Positions 1 through 48,362 of a stretch of DNA of 64,000 nucleotides are shown here, piece by piece. Under the pieces are notes generated by a model. The model was given only the letters and a program-made list of their open reading frames with translations. It was not told the DNA's origin and did not search any database. A program made the translations under genes and the position numbers. Source of the stretch: Asanoa ferruginea (GTDB lineage: Bacteria; Actinomycetota; Actinomycetes; Mycobacteriales; Micromonosporaceae); assembly GCF_003387075.1 (NCBI RefSeq), contig NZ_QUMQ01000001.1, positions 6,448,001-6,512,000 of the forward strand. The letters run 5' to 3'. Numbering within the stretch: position 1 is the first letter of the stretch; every line of letters starts with the position of its first letter.

Positions 1-220
1 CTGCCAGCGGACCCGACGCCGGCAGGCCCCGGCGCGCGGCCTCCGCGGCAAGGACGTCCCGAACAACCAGCACCTGAACCACCCACCGCCGAAGCTGCCG
101 CCCCTCGGCGGTTTCCGGCGTCGGCAACGCGTGCCCGCCCGGCCCTCGATAGAGCCGACCCAGCTCCGCGGCGACGGCATCCGAATGGATCGGCTCGCCG
201 TCGACCCACGCCACCGTCAT
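1..220 (-). CDS. N-terminal part of an unrecognised protein (runs off left edge)
   Basis: An open frame starts with ATG at 220 and continues past the left edge; 73 codons are visible. The protein begins MTVAWVDGEPIHSDAVAAEL and is rich in Ala, Arg and Glu, with no signal peptide or membrane segment. The opening V-D-G-E-P-I resembles the start of SurA/PpiC-type chaperone N-domains, but I cannot assign a family. Its ATG overlaps the stop of the last micro-ORF of the upstream repeat array as ATGA, so it is probably the distal gene of the operon containing the Gfo/Idh and GH38 genes. The coding call is fairly safe; the function is unknown. Confidence 0.6.
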   Translation of the reverse strand, partial: MTVAWVDGEPIHSDAVAAELGRLYRGPGGHALPTPETAEGRQLRRWVVQVLVVRDVLAAEAARRGLPASGPLA

Positions 221-282
221 ATTTCGACCGCTGGCCGTGGTGGCGCGGTAGTGGCGATCCGGCCGATGCATGCCGCCGTCAT
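217..282 (-). CDS. Repeat-derived micro-ORF c (21 aa)
   Basis: ATG at 282 to TGA at 217-219. The peptide starts MTAACIGRIATT and ends AVEI. Its start overlaps the stop of micro-ORF b (ATGA) and its stop overlaps the start of the 1-220 gene (ATGA). It has no ribosome site of its own, so if translated it would depend on coupling. It need not make a functional product. Confidence 0.35.
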   Translation of the reverse strand: MTAACIGRIATTAPPRPAVEI

Positions 283-407
283 GGTTCGACCGCTGGCCGT
301 GGTGGCGCGGTAGTGGCGATCCGGCCGATGCATGCCGCCGTCATGGTTCGACCGCTGGCCGTGGCGGCGCGGTGGTGGCGACCCTGGCGATCCCTGCCCG
401 CTGTCAT
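279..407 (-). CDS. Repeat-derived micro-ORF b (42 aa)
   Basis: ATG at 407 to TGA at 279-281. It spans two repeat units because its first unit is 63 bp, so the next ATG (344) is in frame and no stop intervenes. The peptide starts MTAGRDRQGRHHR and ends PPRPAVEP, echoing the VVEP end of the GH38 protein. It overlaps micro-ORFs a and c by ATGA on each side. Confidence 0.35.
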   Translation of the reverse strand: MTAGRDRQGRHHRAATASGRTMTAACIGRIATTAPPRPAVEP

Positions 408-466
408 GGTTCGACCGTCCGTGGCGGAATGGTGGTGGCGATTCCGCCGACCCATGCCGCCGTCAT
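404..466 (-). CDS. Repeat-derived micro-ORF a (20 aa)
   Basis: ATG at 466 to TGA at 404-406. The ATG overlaps the TGA of the GH38 gene (ATGA at 463-466). The peptide begins MTAAWVGGIATT and ends TVEP. Its N-terminus mirrors that of the 1-220 gene (MTVAWVDG) and its C-terminus mirrors that of the GH38 protein, as expected if the unit is a fusion of the two gene ends. Confidence 0.35.
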   Translation of the reverse strand: MTAAWVGGIATTIPPRTVEP

Positions 467-3400
467 GGCTCGACCACCAGCCGCACCGGGGCGGTGTAGG
501 CAACCCGGCCGAACCACATGACCTTGGCCAGTGCCCACCACGTGCCTGGGGTGGCGTCGGTCGGCACGGTTACCCCGAACGACACCGACGCCTTGCCGCC
601 GGCGTCGAGCGCGAAGCCCTGGGTGTGCGGCGCGAGCATGTCCCAGGTGCCCCACGGGCTGATCACCTGTGCCTCGCCGTGCACGGCATACCCGGCCGGG
701 TTGGCCAGCGACAACGTGATCGTCGCCCGCTGGCCGGCACGCAGCCGCAGTTCGTCGACGTCGAGTTCGGCCGACAGGGCCGGCCCGGCATCGCCGAGCG
801 CCAGCACGTCTTCGACCGTGCTGCCGGCATGTTCCAACTGGGCCGTGACGACACCGCCGGCGGCCGCGTCCGGACCGGGCACGAGGTCGACGCCGAACGA
901 CGTCCAGCCGCCCGGCTCCAAGCGGACCGGCCGCTCGGCCGGGTCAGCCGTCCAGCCGGCGGGAGCTTCGATCCACACCGTCCCGTCGAAGGGACCATCG
1001 ACGAGGTCGCTCGCCACGGTCACCGAAATCGCACCGGACGCCGCGCGGTGGAGGTGCACGCTCACCGGCTGGTTGCCCATCGGCGCGGGACCCTTGTTGT
1101 GTAGCCAGTAGCGGGCGTACACCGGCTGCACCGGCTCGCTCCGTGGCCCGAGTTCGACGGACGACGAGCCAGGCGCTGCGTTGAGCAACCACGTCTCGAT
1201 CTCGAACGGCTCGAGCACCGAAGGGTCACCCGGCCGTGGGCGCTCCACCACGTCGGCCCGGCCGGCAACCGTGAGACCTGGACCCGCCAGCCGAACGGTG
1301 GCGGTCCGGCCGTGTGGCTCGTAGACCCGGGCCGTGACCCCAGCGCGCTCAGCGGCCGGGCGGCCCGACGCGAGGGGATCACCGGTGGCCTTGAGCGCGG
1401 TGAGCACCGCACCCGGCGACACGGTCAACAACGCCGACGAGGCCGGCAACGACCCCGGGTGTGCCTCGGCCACCACAGCGACGAGCGGATGGTTGTAGTC
1501 GTGCGCCCGCGCCGTGATCCCGCCCGCGCGCCAGTCACCGTCGGAGGACGTGAGCGCGTACTCGAACGAGTGGGTCCAATGTTGGAGCGCGAACGGCGAA
1601 CCATCGGGCGCGGTCCGGCGCGGCGGGTCGATCCACACCCCGGTCGGCCAGCCGGTGCACGACCGCAACAGCGACAGGTGCAGCCCGCCGTCGGCGGTGA
1701 CCGCGAACCCGGGAACGCCCCGGTTGAGCACCGCGACAGTCCGGTCCTCGTAGGCCTCCGGCGAGAACGAGCCGGCCACCGGAACCGAGAACTCGGCCAG
1801 GTCGGCGACCAGCGCGGCGACCGCCGCCGCGTCGTCATCCGTCGACGCCACCAGCAGGACGGGCAGGTCGCGCAGGCCGGTGAGGTCGGCGCTCGGTTGC
1901 CAGACCTCGTCCAGCGGCCGCGCGGCGGGCAGCCACATGCGGACGGCGCCGGTGGCGGCGAGTTGCCGGTCGAACGCGGCCGCGTGGTCCGGACCGGCGG
2001 CGGCCAGCACAGCGGCGGTGAACGCGTTGCGAGCTGGACTCCCGACGGAGATCCGCACGTCGGGCAGGTTTGAGTCGATCTCCAGCCGGCCGTAGCGCGG
2101 CCCTGAGGCGGTGGTGGAGGTGGCGGTCACCCCGGCGCGCACCAGCGCCACCGCGAGCGGACGCCCCAGCTCGGCGGGCTCCGGCACGATCACCTCGGCC
2201 ACGCCGATGGCCCGATGACCAACAGAGTCGGGCGACGTCAGCGTGACCCGGGCCGTGGTCCCGGAGCCGAACCACCGGTAGGCCGGGTTGTCGAGCGTCC
2301 ACGGATGCCGCGCGCTGTCGACGTCGGGATGGGCGAACCCGCGCGCGACCACCGCGTTGGCCACTTCCGACAGCGGCAGCCCGCCGGGCACCCCGACCGG
2401 CCAGCGCAGCCGCACCAGGTGGTCGCTGCCGGTGAACTCGTCGACCCGGGTGACGCAGTCCACGTGGGACAGCCCGTGCCACAGCGTCAGCGTCTGCGTG
2501 TAGCGAACCGGGCCGACCGACCCCGTGACGACGATCCGTGAACCGACCGGGCTGTGCTCGACGCGCACCGACGACGCCGGCTGCGAACCGGACGCCACCA
2601 CCGGGCCGCCGGTCGGCAACAGATGCCACGGACCCTCGTGGAACTCGGGGTGTTCGGCGTACTCGTCGTACACCAGGATCTCGTTGCCCACCCGACCGGG
2701 CCGCAGCAGCTCTCGACCGGTGGCCAGCTCGACGAGCGAAGAGACCGTGCCGCCGCGCGCCGGGTCGACCGTGAGCCGGTAGGCGGAGTTGGCGATGCTC
2801 AGTCCCGCGCCGACGGACCAGCCAGGGGCAACGGGCGACGGGACCAACCGGTAGGCGCTCTGGCCCAGCGACGGCACGTCGCGCGCGAGAAACGTCAGCC
2901 GGTCGCCGCACCGCACGGAAGGCACCGCGTCGCCGGAGGAATCCACCACCTGCGCGGGAGACGGCACCGAAACGGTGACCACGTCTGTGCGTGACCACGA
3001 TGACGGGTTGAAGACCAGCACGGCCGAACCGGGCCCGGTGGTGTCGACCTGGTCGCCGAGGTGGCGCACCGCCGCGTCGTGCACTCCCCGGGCCAGGTCG
3101 TGCGCCTCCCGCCAGCCGGCCAGCAGATCGAGGTAGACCTGGTCCGACTCGGTCCCGGTGATGGCGTCATGATGCGCGCCGTAGATGAGCAGCCGCCACG
3201 CCCGGTCCAGCGCCTCGACCGGGTAGCGCGCGTCGCCGTGCACCGACGCCAGCGTCGCCCACTTCTCCGCGTCGACAACCAGGTTCTCCACGACCCGGTG
3301 CGCCTGCTTGGTGTCTATATAGGACACGTCTTTGCCCGTGTAGATCGGGTTCATGTCCCGGGTCTGCGGGCTCAGCGATGTCAGCGAGGCCCGCACCGCG

Positions 3401-4545
3401 GCGAAGAAGTCGCGGGGGAGCGAACACACCAGCCGGGGCCAGAGATAACGGCTGTTCCAGTCGCGGTGGATCTCGGTCAGCCATTTGTTCGGCGGCGAAT
3501 AGTCGGTGCCGACCGGCAGCATGATGTGGCGGGTGGCCGCGGCCGGCCGCATCAACCGCCACAGCCGCAGCACCGCCTCCTCCGCCTCGGCGAGCGTGGC
3601 GGCCGAGTCCATCCACCAGCCGGCGCTGTAGTGCGCGGGCATATAGCTGGTCAGCAACCCCTGCCCGCTCGGCGCGATCCACTCGAACTCGCTCGGGAAC
3701 TGCATCGCCGACGCGTCGGTGACCACGTCGCCGGCCACCCGCATCATCGGGCCCCACTGGTGGAACGGGCCGCGCGCCCACGAACTCGACGTGAGCCCGG
3801 CGTCGGCCATGATGCCGGGAAACTGCGGATCGTGCCCGAAGGCGTCGAGCTGCCATGCGGTCGCCGGGTCGCCGCCGAGCACGTCGCGCTGGAAACCGAG
3901 CCCGTGCACGACGTTGCGGATGGTCGTCTCGGCACCGGTCAGGTTGGTGTTGGGCTCGTTGTAGGTGCCGCCCATCAGCTCCAGCCGACCCTCGGCGAGC
4001 AGCCGCCGGATCAGGTCGCGGTCCTGCGGATAGCAGTCCCAGTAGGGCTTGAGATAGTCGACCTCGGCCAGCACGAACTTGTAGTCGGGATCCCGCCGGG
4101 CCAGTTCGAGATGCGTGCGAACGAGGTCGAATCCGGTGTGCTGATAGGCCGCGCGGTGCTCCTGTGCGGCGCCGGGCAGGGCATTCCATTCACTGGTGTA
4201 CGCGGCCTGCGTGTTCCACCACACCGGGTCGTAGTGGAAGTGCGACACCAGGTGGACGGTCCAGCCCGGCTCGGCGACGACGACCGTGCCCGCACCGTGC
4301 ACCGTCTCACCGCCGGCGCGGGCGGTGACGGTGACCGGCACCTCGGCGCCGGTAGGACCGCCAACGTCGACCGCCACCTCGACTACCGCGACACCCGTGG
4401 CGTCCGCGTCAGCGACGAAACCCTCGACCTCCACGGGTACGCCCGGGCGTGCACCCGCCACCGCGATCCGCACCACCTGGCGCGGCTCGTCGACCGTCCC
4501 GACGAACAGGTCGGTCGACGAGATCGACGTGATCCGGAGCGACAT
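463..4545 (-). CDS. GH38 alpha-mannosidase-like glycosidase, 1360 aa
   Basis: Predicted retaining alpha-mannosidase. After an N-terminal beta region the GH38 core carries HFHYDPVWW (about residues 102-110, metal-site His/Asp), QLDAFGHD (about 232-239, with the Asp expected to be the nucleophile) and HHDAITGT (about 456-463). All three are family signatures. The C-terminal part ends in a sandwich domain of the NEW3/NPCBM-associated type. No signal peptide is visible, so the enzyme is probably cytoplasmic. It is longer than a typical bacterial GH38 because of the flanking beta domains. The ATG overlaps the stop of the Gfo/Idh gene by one base (TGATG), implying one operon. The stop is part of the ATGA junction that seeds the 62-bp repeat array. 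The fold is secure; the exact linkage is not. Confidence 0.9.
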   Translation of the reverse strand: MSLRITSISSTDLFVGTVDEPRQVVRIAVAGARPGVPVEVEGFVADADATGVAVVEVAVDVGGPTGAEVPVTVTARAGGETVHGAGTVVVAEPGWTVHLVSHFHYDPVWWNTQAAYTSEWNALPGAAQEHRAAYQHTGFDLVRTHLELARRDPDYKFVLAEVDYLKPYWDCYPQDRDLIRRLLAEGRLELMGGTYNEPNTNLTGAETTIRNVVHGLGFQRDVLGGDPATAWQLDAFGHDPQFPGIMADAGLTSSSWARGPFHQWGPMMRVAGDVVTDASAMQFPSEFEWIAPSGQGLLTSYMPAHYSAGWWMDSAATLAEAEEAVLRLWRLMRPAAATRHIMLPVGTDYSPPNKWLTEIHRDWNSRYLWPRLVCSLPRDFFAAVRASLTSLSPQTRDMNPIYTGKDVSYIDTKQAHRVVENLVVDAEKWATLASVHGDARYPVEALDRAWRLLIYGAHHDAITGTESDQVYLDLLAGWREAHDLARGVHDAAVRHLGDQVDTTGPGSAVLVFNPSSWSRTDVVTVSVPSPAQVVDSSGDAVPSVRCGDRLTFLARDVPSLGQSAYRLVPSPVAPGWSVGAGLSIANSAYRLTVDPARGGTVSSLVELATGRELLRPGRVGNEILVYDEYAEHPEFHEGPWHLLPTGGPVVASGSQPASSVRVEHSPVGSRIVVTGSVGPVRYTQTLTLWHGLSHVDCVTRVDEFTGSDHLVRLRWPVGVPGGLPLSEVANAVVARGFAHPDVDSARHPWTLDNPAYRWFGSGTTARVTLTSPDSVGHRAIGVAEVIVPEPAELGRPLAVALVRAGVTATSTTASGPRYGRLEIDSNLPDVRISVGSPARNAFTAAVLAAAGPDHAAAFDRQLAATGAVRMWLPAARPLDEVWQPSADLTGLRDLPVLLVASTDDDAAAVAALVADLAEFSVPVAGSFSPEAYEDRTVAVLNRGVPGFAVTADGGLHLSLLRSCTGWPTGVWIDPPRRTAPDGSPFALQHWTHSFEYALTSSDGDWRAGGITARAHDYNHPLVAVVAEAHPGSLPASSALLTVSPGAVLTALKATGDPLASGRPAAERAGVTARVYEPHGRTATVRLAGPGLTVAGRADVVERPRPGDPSVLEPFEIETWLLNAAPGSSSVELGPRSEPVQPVYARYWLHNKGPAPMGNQPVSVHLHRAASGAISVTVASDLVDGPFDGTVWIEAPAGWTADPAERPVRLEPGGWTSFGVDLVPGPDAAAGGVVTAQLEHAGSTVEDVLALGDAGPALSAELDVDELRLRAGQRATITLSLANPAGYAVHGEAQVISPWGTWDMLAPHTQGFALDAGGKASVSFGVTVPTDATPGTWWALAKVMWFGRVAYTAPVRLVVEP

Positions 4546-10678: not shown

Positions 10679-11347
10679 CTAGAGCAGTTCGGCGTCGTGC
10701 ACCAGCAGGGCCACCTGCACGCGGTTGTTCAGGTCGAGCTTGGCCAGCAGCCGGGAGACGTGCCCCTTGACCGTCGGCACGCTCATCGACAGCCGCGCGC
10801 TGATCTCGGCGTTGGACCAGCCCTCGCCCAGCGCCACCGCCACCTCGCGCTCCCGGTCGGTGAGCTTGGCCAGCTTGGCCCGGGCGCGATCGCGGCGTGG
10901 TCCGGCCAGCGGGTCGGCGACGTGGTCGATCAGTTGCCGGATGACCGCCGGCGACAGTGTTGCCGACCCGGCGGCGACCGTGCGCACCGCCTCGATGATG
11001 TCGAGCGGCGGGGTGTCCTTGAGCAGGAAACCGCTCGCACCGGCCCGCAAGGCGTCAAGCACATGCTCGTCGGCGTTGAACGTCGTCAGCACGATCACCT
11101 GCGGCGGCGCCGGCCGCGACCGCAGCCGCCGGGTGGCGACAAGTCCGTCCACTTTGGGCATCCGCAGGTCCATCAGCACGACATCGGGCCAGTGCGCGTC
11201 GGCCAGCGCGTCGACCTCGGTGCCGTCGCGACCCTCGGCGACCACCTCGATGTCGGGCGAGCCACCCATCAGAATCCGCAGACCGGCCCGCACGAGCGGA
11301 TCGTCGTCGACGATGGCGAGCCGGATGACCGCCCGGGCCGCCGTCAC
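10679..11347 (-). CDS. NarL/LuxR-family response regulator, 222 aa
   Basis: The receiver domain shows the acidic triad D14-D15-D16, the phospho-acceptor D60 in VVLMDLRMP and the conserved Lys in FLLKDTPP. The C-terminal LuxR helix-turn-helix is LTDREREVAVALGEGWSNAE followed by PTVKGHVSRLLAKL. The GTG at 11347 is chosen because it gives the standard length and overlaps the stop of the preceding reading frame as GTGA. A longer ATG start at 11398 would run into the repeat array. It works with the DesK-like kinase encoded just upstream. The signal is unknown. Confidence 0.9.
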   Translation of the reverse strand: MTAARAVIRLAIVDDDPLVRAGLRILMGGSPDIEVVAEGRDGTEVDALADAHWPDVVLMDLRMPKVDGLVATRRLRSRPAPPQVIVLTTFNADEHVLDALRAGASGFLLKDTPPLDIIEAVRTVAAGSATLSPAVIRQLIDHVADPLAGPRRDRARAKLAKLTDREREVAVALGEGWSNAEISARLSMSVPTVKGHVSRLLAKLDLNNRVQVALLVHDAELL

Positions 11348-11673
11348 GCCGGCCACGGCAGCCACGCCTCGGCTGGGGCCGCGGTCGTGCTCGGCCATGG
11401 CACCCACGACTCGACCCGCGCCGCGGTCGTGCTCGGCCGCGGCGGCCGCGCCTCGACCCGCGCCGCGGTCGTGCTCGGCCGGGGCGGCCGCGCCTCGACC
11501 CGCGCCGCGGTCGTGCTCGGCCGGGGCGGCCGCGCCTCGACCCGCGCCGCGGTCGTGCTCGGCCGGGGCGGCCGCGCCTCGACCCGCGCCGCGCTCGTGC
11601 TCGGCCGGGGCGGCCGCGCCTCGACCTGCGCCGCGGTCATGCGCGGCCACACCTCGGCTGGGGCTGCGGTCAC
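11344..11673 (-). CDS. Repeat-encoded linking ORF between kinase and regulator, 109 aa
   Basis: A GTG at 11673 overlaps the kinase TGA (GTGA), and the TGA at 11344-11346 overlaps the regulator GTG (GTGA). The frame between is a tandem 14-residue repeat, VEARPPRPSTTAAR, about six copies, opening VTAAPAEVWPR and closing with AEAWLPWPA. That end is the same as the kinase C-terminus (VEAWLPWPA). The unit reads as a fusion of the kinase C-terminus with the regulator N-terminus (VTAAR), with GTGA mutated to ACGA so the stop is lost. Whether the Pro/Arg-rich peptide exists or does anything is unknown. Confidence 0.45.
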   Translation of the reverse strand: MTAAPAEVWPRMTAAQVEARPPRPSTSAARVEARPPRPSTTAARVEARPPRPSTTAARVEARPPRPSTTAARVEARPPRPSTTAARVESWVPWPSTTAAPAEAWLPWPA

Positions 11674-11700
11674 GCCGGCCATGGCAGCCATGCCTCGACC
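11367..11700 (-). repeat. 42-bp GC-rich minisatellite at the kinase/regulator junction
   Basis: The phase marker CCTCG (plus strand) recurs at 11367, then as ACTCG at 11409, then at 11451, 11493, 11535, 11577 and 11619, exactly 42 bp apart. Degenerate copies follow at 11652 and 11693, the last inside the kinase gene. Units from 11451 to 11618 are almost identical. The terminal copies at each side still hold the GTGA stop/start overlap. Confidence 0.92.
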
Positions 11701-12854
11701 CGGAAGCCCGCATCGTCGCGGCCGTGCTCGACCCGGCCGCCGACCAGCGCGACCCGCTCGCCAACGCCAACCAGACCCATGCCGGCGCTGGGGTCGGTGG
11801 GCGGGCGGACATCCGGCGGGCACGGGTTCGTGATCCGGACCCGGAGGTCGGCGCCCTCGGCCCCGTCGAGCAGCACCGCCACGGCGCTGCCGGGAGCGTG
11901 CTTGCGGGCGTTGGTCAGGCCCTCCTGCACGACCCGGTAGAGCGTGCGGCCGAGCACCACGGATGGGCCGGCCACCGGGACCAGGCAGGTGTAGGAAACA
12001 GTCATGCCGGTCGCCCGGGCGCACTCGACCAACTCCGGCAGGTCGGCCAGGCCGGGCTGCGGCGGCTCGGGCCGGCCCGCGGCGCCCTCGCGCAGGACAC
12101 CGATCACGGTGCGCAACTCCTGAAGGGCGTCGTGGACGCTGGTGCGGATCGCCCCGGCCGCGATCGCGACCTCCTCCGGCCGCGCGTCGGTGCGCACCTC
12201 CAAAGCTCCGGCGTGCAGGCTGACCAGCGACATCCGGTGGGCGAGCACGTCGTGCATCTCCCGCGCGATGCGGGCCCGCTCGGTCAGCCGGGCCTGGTCG
12301 ACCCGCAGGTGCTGCTCGGCCTCCAGCCGCGCCGCGCGTTCCCGCAGCGACCGGGTCAGCCGCCGGTTGCCCTGCACGAACAGGCCCCAGCCGATCGCCG
12401 CGGAACTCGGCCCGGCGCGGGCCACCAGGTCGACCCAGAGCGGGAACTCCGGCCGGTCGTGCAGCAGGAAGTAGACCGGCACGGCCGCGACGTAGGCGCC
12501 GGCGAGCAGCAGCGCGACCCTGGCCCGGCGATGCACCGCCACGGTGAAGAGCGCGACGATGGCCGCGCCCGTTGACAGCACCGACACCGCGGTCGCCGGG
12601 ATCACCGCAGCGGTGACGCCGACCGGCCACCGGCGCCGGGCCAGCAGGCCGAGACAGCACGCGACGCCGATCGCGGCGTCGACCGGCCAGGGCACCGCGG
12701 CACCGGGTTTGGTCGCGTCGCCGATCGCCATCATCAACGCGCCGTAGGCCAGGGCGCAGCCGATCGCGACGGCATCGGCGAGCCGGTCGCGGGTCGTGGA
12801 TCCGGGGCTGCCCGGCGGCTCGGGCACGAGCAGCGTGAAGGGCAGACCGGACAT
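11670..12854 (-). CDS. DesK/NarL-type sensor histidine kinase, 394 aa
   Basis: Four or more hydrophobic helices fill roughly residues 30-150 with very short loops. Then comes a HisKA_3 dimerisation domain with the phosphorylated His in ARIAREMHDVLAHRMSLV (about residue 200), and an ATPase domain ending GMGLVGVGERVALVGG. No large extracellular sensor domain is present, so it probably senses membrane state or a small ligand. The stop overlaps the linking ORF start (GTGA). The ATG at 12854 (MSGLPFTLL) is followed by a Pro-rich stretch before the first helix. Partner: the 10679-11347 regulator. Confidence 0.9.
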   Translation of the reverse strand: MSGLPFTLLVPEPPGSPGSTTRDRLADAVAIGCALAYGALMMAIGDATKPGAAVPWPVDAAIGVACCLGLLARRRWPVGVTAAVIPATAVSVLSTGAAIVALFTVAVHRRARVALLLAGAYVAAVPVYFLLHDRPEFPLWVDLVARAGPSSAAIGWGLFVQGNRRLTRSLRERAARLEAEQHLRVDQARLTERARIAREMHDVLAHRMSLVSLHAGALEVRTDARPEEVAIAAGAIRTSVHDALQELRTVIGVLREGAAGRPEPPQPGLADLPELVECARATGMTVSYTCLVPVAGPSVVLGRTLYRVVQEGLTNARKHAPGSAVAVLLDGAEGADLRVRITNPCPPDVRPPTDPSAGMGLVGVGERVALVGGRVEHGRDDAGFRVEAWLPWPA

Positions 12855-45633: not shown

Positions 45634-48362
45634 GCACGGTCGAGGGCTGGGAGTGCCGGCTGGTCGGCACCGACGACTGGCGACCGGTGCCGGTGCCCGG
45701 GTCGTGGGAGCAGACCGGGATTCCCTTGGACCATCCCGGTCCGGTGGACTATCGCGCGACGTTCGACGTGCCGGTCGGCGGCGCCCGCTTGCGGTTGCGG
45801 TTCGGCGCCGTCAGCTATGCCTGCGAGGTGCTGGTCAACGGCCGCGTGGCCGGGCAGCACGTCGGGATGTGGGACGCGTTCGAGGTCGACATCACCGGTC
45901 TCGTCACCCCGGGTCAGCCCGCCGAGGTGCTGGTGCGGGCCGAGAAACCGGCCAGCCTGACCGGTGGGCCCGACGCGCCGCCGGTGCCCGGCCGCTATCC
46001 CGCCCGGGAGACGCTGGCCGGCTTCCTGCCCTACGTCTGGGGGCACTCGCACGGCGGTGTCTGGCGGCCGGTCGAGTTGCTGGTCACCGGCGAGTGCGCG
46101 CTCGGCGACGTCGACGTTTCCGGCACCGCCGACGGCCGGTTGTCGGTCGCGGCCACGCTGCTCGGGCCGGGCGAGCTGACCGTCTCGGTGCGCGATCCTT
46201 CCGGGGTGGTGGTCGCGCGATCGGTCGGGAACGGAACGCTGACGATCCCCGATCCGCGGCCCTGGTCGCCGCACGACCCGGCGCTCTACGCGGTCACCGT
46301 GCACACCTCCGGCGGCGACTCGAAGACTGTCTACACCGGACTGCGCACGCTCGAGGCCGACGGGTCGCTGCTGCGGCTCAACGGCGAACCGCTCTATCCC
46401 CGGATGATCCTCTCCTGGGGCTGGTATCCGGACCAGCTGCACCCCGACCCGGGCCCCGAGCGGGTCCGGGCCGACCTGATCGAGCTGCGCCGGCTCGGCT
46501 TCAACGGCGTCAAGCTCTGCCTCTGGTTCCCGCCCGACTACTACTTCGCGATCGCCGACGAGCTGGGCATGCTGCTCTGGGTCGAGCTGCCGATGTGGCT
46601 GCCGCACCCCACACCGCACTTCCGGACGCAGCTCTTCGCCGAGGCGTCACGGTTGGTCCGCGCCGCCGCCAACCATCCGTCGGTCATCCTGCTCACGCTC
46701 GGCTGCGAGCTGTCCTCGGCCGTCGGCGCCGACGTGCTGGGGCCGCTCTACGACCTCGTGAAGCGGCTCGCGCCGGGCACGCTGGTGCGCGACAACAGCG
46801 GCTCGGGGGAGGCCTACGGCGGGCTGCTCGACGAGTTCGCCGACTTCGACGACCACCACTTCTACTGCGAACCCGCCTACTTCCGGGGCACCCTCGACCA
46901 CTTCGCGCCCCGCTGGCGGGCGGCCCGGCCGTGGCTGTTCGGCGAGTTCTGCGACCTCGACACCTTCCGCGACCTGCGCCGGCTGGACTCTCCGTGGTGG
47001 ACCAGCGCGGACCCGGCGGTCAACCCGCAGGGTGCCCGCTGGCAATACGACGTGCCCGACCAGGAGAAGACGTTGCGGGGCAACGGCTTCTGGGACCGTG
47101 GTGCCGAGCTGGAACGGATCTCCGCCCGACAGGCGGTGTTGCACCGCAAGGTGACCCTGGAGGCGGTCCGGGTCCGCGCCGACACTAGCGGCTACGTCAT
47201 CACCGGCGAGCGGGACACCCCGATCAGCACGGCCGGGCTCTTCGACGACTCCGGCGCGCTGAAGGTCGACGCGGCATCGTTCGCGCAGTTCAACGCCGAC
47301 CTCGTGGTCGGGTTGGACTGGGACCGCCGACGCGCGTGGACCGCCGGCGGCGACCGGCCGGCGCCCTGGGACACCTGGTGCCATCCGGCCGGTGCCTTGG
47401 TTCGCCCCCACCTGGTGCTGGCCCACCACGGCCGCACCGGCGGCCGGGCGGAGGTCCGCTGGCGGGTCGACCTGGCCGACGGCGGCGAGGCCGAGTCCGC
47501 GGCGGTCGAGCCCGGCGCGGTCGAGCCCGGTTTGGTCAAGCCCGGCGCGGACGCGTCCGGTTTGGTCGAGCCCGGTTTGGTCGAGGCCGGCCCGGTCGAG
47601 CCCGGCCCGGACGCGTCCGGTTTGGTCGCCTCGGGCTCGTTGGCCGCCGACATCGCGGCCGGCGCCGTCGCCGGGTTGGGCATCGCGGCGTTCACCGTGC
47701 CCGCGGTCGACCGTCCCCGCCGGGCGGTGCTGCGCGTCGAGGTCGACTGTGCCGGTCAGCGCACCAGCAACAGTTGGTCGTTCTGGTTCCTGCCCGACCG
47801 CGGTTGGCCCGGGCCGGTCGCCGTCGTGGATCCGGCCGGTCGACTGACCGACCTGGCCGCGCTCGGGGCTCAGGTGGTCCCGGTGGAGACACCCGGCGCG
47901 GTTCTGCTGGCCACCGCCTGGACCGAGCCGGTCCGCCAGCACCTGCGCGCCGGCGGCAACGCCGTGCTGCTGGTCGACGCGGCCTGCGTCGACCCGCCGC
48001 TGCCGGTCGCGGCCATGCCGTTCTGGCGCGAGGCGGTCAAGGTGATCGAGCCGCACGAGGCCTGGGGCGACTTCCCGCACGACGGCTGGACCGACCTCCA
48101 GTTCGCCGGGATGGCGCCGGACCTGGCCCTCGACGTCACCGCCCTGCCGATCGGCGGCCGGCCGCTGCTACGCCGGGTGGACACCCGGACCAGCCAGGTG
48201 CACGACTACGCGGTCGAGGTGCCCTGGTCCGCCGGCCGGCTGATCGTCAGCACGCTGCGCTTCGACGGCTCCGGCGGCGACCAGCCGCTCGGCCTGCGCC
48301 GCAACACCAGCGCCGCCTACCTGCTCGGGCAGTGGGTGCGGGCCCTGGGGAAGGAGAGCTGA
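45630..48362 (+). CDS. GH2-family glycosidase with an in-frame repeat insert, 910 aa
   Basis: GH2 order: sugar-binding beta-sandwich (VPVPGSWEQTG), immunoglobulin-like domain, then a TIM barrel (LNGEPLYPRMILSWGWYPDQ). The nucleophile Glu is in WLFGEFCD (near 438). The acid/base Glu is in LTLGCELSS (near 358), where GH2 enzymes usually have N-E; here the Asn is Cys. Residues 626-670 are nine pentapeptide repeats (VEPGA/VEPGL/DASGL) inside a C-terminal beta domain. GTG 45630 overlaps the previous stop (GTGA). Beta-mannosidase, galactosidase or glucuronidase-type specificity cannot be settled. Confidence 0.85.
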   Translation: MSTVEGWECRLVGTDDWRPVPVPGSWEQTGIPLDHPGPVDYRATFDVPVGGARLRLRFGAVSYACEVLVNGRVAGQHVGMWDAFEVDITGLVTPGQPAEVLVRAEKPASLTGGPDAPPVPGRYPARETLAGFLPYVWGHSHGGVWRPVELLVTGECALGDVDVSGTADGRLSVAATLLGPGELTVSVRDPSGVVVARSVGNGTLTIPDPRPWSPHDPALYAVTVHTSGGDSKTVYTGLRTLEADGSLLRLNGEPLYPRMILSWGWYPDQLHPDPGPERVRADLIELRRLGFNGVKLCLWFPPDYYFAIADELGMLLWVELPMWLPHPTPHFRTQLFAEASRLVRAAANHPSVILLTLGCELSSAVGADVLGPLYDLVKRLAPGTLVRDNSGSGEAYGGLLDEFADFDDHHFYCEPAYFRGTLDHFAPRWRAARPWLFGEFCDLDTFRDLRRLDSPWWTSADPAVNPQGARWQYDVPDQEKTLRGNGFWDRGAELERISARQAVLHRKVTLEAVRVRADTSGYVITGERDTPISTAGLFDDSGALKVDAASFAQFNADLVVGLDWDRRRAWTAGGDRPAPWDTWCHPAGALVRPHLVLAHHGRTGGRAEVRWRVDLADGGEAESAAVEPGAVEPGLVKPGADASGLVEPGLVEAGPVEPGPDASGLVASGSLAADIAAGAVAGLGIAAFTVPAVDRPRRAVLRVEVDCAGQRTSNSWSFWFLPDRGWPGPVAVVDPAGRLTDLAALGAQVVPVETPGAVLLATAWTEPVRQHLRAGGNAVLLVDAACVDPPLPVAAMPFWREAVKVIEPHEAWGDFPHDGWTDLQFAGMAPDLALDVTALPIGGRPLLRRVDTRTSQVHDYAVEVPWSAGRLIVSTLRFDGSGGDQPLGLRRNTSAAYLLGQWVRALGKES
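47505..47639 (+). repeat. 15-bp in-frame minisatellite inside the GH2 gene
   Basis: Nine consecutive 15-bp units based on GTCGAGCCCGGTTTG, encoding VEPGA, VEPGL, VKPGA, DASGL, VEPGL, VEAGP, VEPGP, DASGL, VASGS. The reuse of DASGL shows that blocks of units have also been duplicated. The insert lies between two beta strands and keeps the reading frame. Confidence 0.9.

Follow-up and report, generated by a model that had tools for sequence, protein, structure and literature searches.

Tandem repeats that separate a two-component kinase from its regulator have been described for MIRU at senX3-regX3, where the units measure 77 and 53 bp and promoter activity is reported (PMC4213456); by our own arithmetic both lengths are 2 modulo 3. 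The ORF contained in MIRU is reported to be coupled at -4 nt, the element being apparently mobile and inserted at start codons (PMC12548453), and it has been suggested that MIRU may influence translation downstream of it (PMC7884335). Here we describe an array with the same layout, which together with two further arrays (GH38 and cob) appears, by geometry, to share the MIRU-type -4 ORF coupling. Unlike MIRU, these arrays are each pieced together from the two genes on either side, and neither the GH38 nor the cob unit recurs elsewhere in the genome. The NTGA joint is also common to ordinary -4 overlap coupling; there the coupling takes one step, whereas the duplicated joint here would take two or more. 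In E. coli gene pairs, reinitiation is reported to fall by 40-80% at +14 nt and to be nearly gone at +38 nt, with the last 15 nt of gene 1 sufficient for reinitiation (PMC10666635). The two-codon minigene of axe-txe resembles the linker described below in being a cis-acting mini-ORF for which distance and frame are important, and differs from it in having no tandem repeat and, in the part of that report available to us, no described origin from flanking genes (PMC8708949). Bacterial minisatellites (VNTR), whose defining unit size of 10-100 bp includes that of the array, likewise consist of head-to-tail units with near-identical inner copies; in contrast to VNTR in general, the array was seeded at a stop-start overlap and is frame-compatible at both ends. 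A search of the open-access literature found no paper describing home-grown relay arrays.

The first array lies between a histidine kinase gene and a response regulator gene in the window, the whole 64,000-nucleotide stretch of Asanoa ferruginea DNA that was analysed. The features of this locus are as follows.

11670..12854, minus strand: histidine kinase gene (HisKA_3 and HATPase_c; from the ORF and Pfam), protein C-terminus EAWLPWPA*
11670..11673, minus strand: first GTGA, overlap of the kinase stop and the linker start (direct reading)
11344..11673, minus strand: linker ORF of 109 aa plus stop with 14-residue repeats, a putative relay mini-cistron (ORF reading)
11348..11673, minus strand: tandem array with units of 33 + 6x42 + 41 bp, regulator-start/kinase-end chimeras (Tandem Repeats Finder, register spacing and chimera fit)
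11641..11673, minus strand: first unit of the array, 33 bp, 8-9 bp shorter, 25 of 33 bases identical to the chimera with a gap
11348..11388, minus strand: last unit of the array, 41 bp, nearest to the inferred seed length, 33 of 41 bases equal to the predicted chimera
11344..11347, minus strand: second GTGA, overlap of the linker stop and the regulator start (direct reading)
10679..11347, minus strand: response regulator gene, NarL-type, with receiver and LuxR-type domains (Pfam), sequence VTAARAVIRLAIVDDDP

The kinase, the linker ORF and the regulator lie in three different reading frames, and the linker ORF is bounded precisely by the first GTG and the last TGA, with an NTGA shared between a stop and a start at each of its ends. 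The two GTGA overlaps and the 109-codon ORF exactly between them, as claimed in an earlier sequence-only reading of this DNA, were confirmed by direct inspection of sequence and frames. The linker ORF matched no Pfam family, and no Shine-Dalgarno-like site was seen directly upstream of the regulator GTG.

Tandem Repeats Finder returned the array as 7.6 copies of 42 bp with a score of 466, the highest of three loci in the window scoring above 150. The register spacings were 33, 42 (six times) and 41 bp, which sum to 326 bp, a total of 2 modulo 3 that is expected by chance one time in three. The kinase end and the regulator start, joined at their common CCGGG, give a 41-bp chimera that by itself would encode a mini-ORF flanked by GTGA at both ends; the CCGGG microhomology at this breakpoint was not significant (P = 0.08). 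The inner units matched the predicted chimera at 32-34 of 42 bases. Five of the eight units were tested against it; for each of the five, 1000 shuffles failed to reach the score of the unit, in agreement with the earlier proposal that the array arose from copies of the junction. The seed duplication was most likely 41 bp. A separate third frame ending on the regulator GTG exists only because the array total is 2 modulo 3, and a plain 42-bp duplication was rejected as the seed since its first GTG would fall in the regulator's own frame and merely extend the regulator.

Among the inner registers, the first (11640) reads ATGA and the remaining six read ACGA. The inner 42-bp units are near-identical and all have one extra base and a lost GTGA; these common changes point to the amplification of one altered unit, by which the 42-bp/ACGA state probably arose, rather than by many separate decays. 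The sequence-only reading had described a pure 42-bp array, which holds for the inner six units and not for the end units of 33 and 41 bp. Its argument that a multiple of three keeps one frame open applies to the inner units, the third frame itself needing a seed of 2 modulo 3, and its proposal that the inner GTGA copies decayed to ACGA and were homogenised is refined by the likely amplification of one altered unit. The 42-bp unit is free of stops in all six frames, so the openness of the 109 codons is not evidence of coding, and it was rejected as such. The array RNA folds strongly (z -3.5), which could tie the regulator start still more tightly to linker translation.

We consider it likely that duplicated stop-start overlaps persist where the frame still permits termination-reinitiation, the insert being a putative relay mini-cistron. 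At the ancestral NTGA overlap, a ribosome finishing the kinase could restart at the regulator. Some 41 bp would then have been duplicated in tandem, a stretch that took in the closing codons of the kinase, the GTGA and the opening codons of the regulator; as 41 equals 2 modulo 3, the copy would begin in the regulator frame with the first GTG, cross into the kinase frame and end in a TGA overlapping the regulator GTG, producing a mini-cistron with one coupling site at each end. A unit with one base gained and its NTGA lost (42 bp, 0 modulo 3) would then have been amplified inside to give the 109-codon linker, and gain or loss of 42-bp units would leave the relay unbroken. The predicted order is kinase stop, restart on the linker, linker stop and restart on the regulator. 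Since a gap of +38 nt nearly abolishes reinitiation in the E. coli pairs, the 326-nt gap would need a bridge, and because each unit consists of a gene 1 end and a gene 2 start, a copied joint would bring its own bridge if its length is 2 modulo 3. A single NTGA overlap by itself moves the frame by one step, so a duplication by a multiple of three would only extend the regulator and give no separate linker. We infer that ribosomes translate the relay and pass from it to the regulator, that duplications are sifted by selection for coupling, and that every relay step reduces regulator supply. The linker peptide is probably a by-product without a function of its own.

The same junction was analysed at 213 kinase/regulator loci, six of them without a downstream regulator. 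The remaining 207 junctions comprised 197 distinct junctions, which a list of our own divided into 138 taken as family-level and 59 that were set aside; one genome was taken per species, gene calls were our own, and related sequences are counted as independent. Comparison of six genomes of the genus revealed the array only in G000, the genome to which the window belongs. The regulator starts at the kinase-stop GTGA in G001, G002, G003 and G005, and the G004 junction reads TTGA, 11 codons, TTGA. A simple overlap had been predicted for relatives, and this prediction was borne out: in 123 of the 138 distinct family-level junctions the regulator is in the frame of the start that overlaps the kinase stop. 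The kinase stops at these 138 junctions were GTGA (80), ATGA (27), CTGA (21), TTGA (4) and others (6). All 45 family-level junctions with spacers of up to 30 nt were in the coupled frame, and those with spacers above 30 nt were distributed 78:12:3 for 2:1:0 modulo 3 (78 coupled, 12 one step off and 3 two steps off).

The other 15 of the 138 junctions were off-frame. One relay ORF bridges L009, L012, L021, L125, L127, L151, L184 and L186, and two bridge L166. Judged by eye, bridging at L105 depends on the use of an ATG located 10 nt ahead of its TAA, and at L155 it takes place through an 8-nt overlap. An AAGGAG-like site precedes the GTG at L207, L212 and L219, where the regulators may be independently started and the relay is perhaps dispensable. 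No bridging relay was found at the off-frame junction L141. Several relays depend on CTG starts, and individual relay junctions were weakly improbable under shuffling (P mostly 0.03-0.17).

When the linker peptide was compared with 48 other family-level spacers longer than 60 nt, no match better than E 0.038 was obtained; its best matches, of 7-29 residues, were to L105 and L166, each of which has its own junction copies. Replacement of a conserved gene by repeats was rejected, as the linker has no homologue among these 48 spacers, and the conserved, non-repetitive intervening gene that the earlier reading had named as its refuting case was not seen among the family-level spacers, all of which are at most 439 nt. 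Among the 48 spacers only L207, L212 and L219, which are related, match each other over their full length, and four other pairs have 46-66 bp in common at 76-86% identity. At four non-family junctions (Streptomyces) the matched regulator lies 586-1223 nt away. Regulator-frame extensions from the kinase stop to the receiver domain were also noted in L133 (134 codons), L146 (112), L016 (101) and L161 (100), the L016 extension being of low complexity where read.

We also searched all 207 junctions for repeats between the kinase end and the spacer, with 621 spacer shuffles giving a maximum score of 14. Scores of at least 25 were found at six junctions: L105 (50 bp), L164 (50 bp), L166 (35 bp), L072 (96 bp), L181 (15 bp) and the array locus, where the kinase-end/regulator-start repeat scored 25. 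L105 has three copies at a spacing of exactly 50 bp. L164 reads CTGA-17 codons-CTGA-17-CTGA-17-CTGA-regulator, for which CTG starts are needed, and L166 reads GTGA-12-GTGA-12-GTGA-regulator (in codons); such NTGA-chain junctions resemble the intermediate postulated earlier for the array. The unit lengths and breakpoints differ, which argues that the duplications at L105, L164, L166 and the array locus are separate in origin. The kinase end of L072 (Streptomyces actinomycinicus) is duplicated at an offset of 96, or 0 modulo 3, and its regulator is distant, and in L080 (Streptomyces sp. NRRL S-340) the kinase end is likewise duplicated and no regulator was seen. The duplication at L181 is in frame, and other, shorter in-frame repeats occur in regulator N-termini. 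None of the six strong junction repeats is 1 modulo 3.

The phenomenon extends beyond the kinase locus, to other gene pairs and to relatives. A second junction array is present in the window, and a third was identified by an array scan that covered 1.664 Mb of the 9.07-Mb genome (about 18%) and 1420 stops, using our own gene caller.

463..4545, minus strand: GH38 alpha-mannosidase gene, upstream partner of the second array
217..466, minus strand: second junction array, with ATGA at 466, 407, 344, 282 and 220
L312:14885-15205 = G000:C1:4494885-4495205, minus strand: third array, at the cobL/cbiG-cobJ joint (scan)

ORFs of 20, 42 and 21 codons connect the ATGAs of the GH38 array, and the final ATGA opens a DUF7158 gene that extends off the window. 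Of 30 GH38 loci in relatives, 23 were walked. Eight of the relatives walked (L263-L270) have a next gene that is homologous, and there the two genes meet in a simple ATGA or GTGA; the remaining 14 have no such direct start. No GH38 homologues were found in the five other genus members. At the cob array, CobL is followed by ATGA, four 27-codon ATGA-joined ORFs at 80-bp spacing and then a CbiG-CobJ fusion. A search for this joint, with 14 of 21 rows walked (six weaker matches were omitted, as was G002, which is truncated at the end of a contig), revealed no units in G001, G003 and G004, one in G005 and four in G000. Nine loci beyond the genus comprised six plain overlaps, two joints without a usable overlap, and G008, which reads GTGA-26 codons-GTGA. 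In G005, 74 of the 80 bases of the unit agree with a chimera built from its own flanking sequences, and the breakpoint shows an 11-base identity (0 of 500 shuffles); breakpoint microhomology was significant at the cob joint only. The G005 unit matches the G000 units at 59-61 of 80 bases; being closer to its own flanks than to the G000 units, it is recent or homogenised.

Within the genome, the cob unit gave four matches, all inside its own array, and the GH38 array matched only itself. The kinase array matched itself, the kinase tail and 14 partial sequences elsewhere at 67-85% identity. A dispersed element was rejected for the GH38 and cob arrays, which have no other copies in the genome, and the kinase array is less clear in this respect. 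Two other repeats were noted. The window has a further tandem repeat at 47483-47628, whose periods (15, 30, 45 and 60 bp) are each divisible by three. A 17-bp CTGA tandem array lies directly after a gene end at L322:16342-16457, with the next gene 178 bp on and unreached by the chain.

Stop-spanning duplications (score of at least 18) were found at 14 of 502 convergent ends, 5 of 593 near same-strand stops, 1 of 32 far stops, 1 of 5 stops beside a sequence end and none of 288 overlapping stops; relay arrays count as near or sequence-end stops because the array itself separates the genes. Offsets of the convergent-end duplications were 5, 4 and 5 for 0, 1 and 2 modulo 3, where some convergent neighbours have one repeat in common. 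In comparison, the seed units at coupled joints (41, 50, 50, 35, 62 and 80) were 2 modulo 3 in six of six cases versus 5 of 14 at convergent ends (P = 0.014), and in six of seven when the 15-bp in-frame duplication at L181 was included (P = 0.063). The frame bias among the duplications themselves is supported by few cases. A loose relay search that accepted CTG and internal starts returned 264 of 836 pairs and was discarded as non-specific. A stricter look at 2.06 Mb of G000 and G008, with our own calls, gave 175 of 504 near pairs with gene 2 starting at NTGA. Among these 175 pairs, distances of 2:0:1 modulo 3 were distributed 29:26:10 where the gene 1 stop overlaps ATG, GTG or TTG, and 40:34:36 otherwise; the comparison of class 2, which is compatible with a relay, with the incompatible class 1 gave P = 0.028, and is post hoc and dependent on our own start calls.

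Three other explanations were weighed. The array could be a neutral minisatellite, grown by slippage at a tolerant site, with a self-promoted or self-started regulator and a frame relation that is a one-in-three accident. We consider this unlikely: longer spacers are biased 78:12:3, NTGA linkage is kept in the three arrays of the genome and in chains in relatives, and the regulator GTG has no Shine-Dalgarno-like site directly before it. These observations have to be set against the finding that a duplication across the stop is nothing unusual where genes converge (14 of 502 stops), the distant and apparently separately started regulators of some Streptomyces relatives, and the promoter activity reported for the senX3-regX3 repeat region (PMC4213456). 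Selection of the array as a copy-number rheostat, in which each relay step or unit cuts regulator supply, would agree with the variation at the cob joint across sister species (0, 0, 0, 1 and 4 units) and with the strong folding of the array RNA; as changing the unit number leaves the geometry the same, this appears quite unlikely.

A functional small protein, or a regulator extended N-terminally through the array in its own frame (377 aa from 11812), seems very improbable, even though both frames are open and an extension has precedent in the regulator-frame extensions of L133, L146, L016 and L161. The linker belongs to no Pfam family and has no homologue among the 48 other spacers, the repeat unit is stop-free in every frame, and the five other genus members have no array. 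Persistence of duplicated overlaps as relays is the reading that we prefer. Under it, living relatives with intermediates would illustrate how an operon joint can become a new ORF with the path of the ribosome intact, and the repeats tolerated in operons would depend on their length modulo three, a prediction that can be counted. A natural series for measuring the cost per termination-reinitiation step would be provided by the sister species, which differ at the cob joint (0, 1 and 4 units). A possible origin for MIRU-like elements would also follow. A broader and more tentative reading, which we regard as possible rather than probable, is that stop-start overlaps in actinobacteria recurrently become relay mini-cistrons, with units of 2 modulo 3 and coupling sites at either end, giving frame-protected new ORFs and copy-number tuning within operons, and that MIRU is possibly a home-grown junction unit of this kind that dispersed later.

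Two positions 9 nt apart are candidates for the regulator start, as an in-frame ATG or GTG also lies 9 nt upstream of the NTGA; either start leaves the frame argument unchanged. At about 11682-11684 of the window, and at orthologous kinase ends, a C-terminal Pro codon precedes Trp, and the codon CCA at this position creates an ATG in the regulator frame. This analysis revealed CCA at that Pro in 24 of 137 family kinases compared with 111 of 2766 other Pro codons (P = 6e-9, uncorrected for relatedness), and regulator translation may begin at the NTG nine bases upstream of the NTGA.
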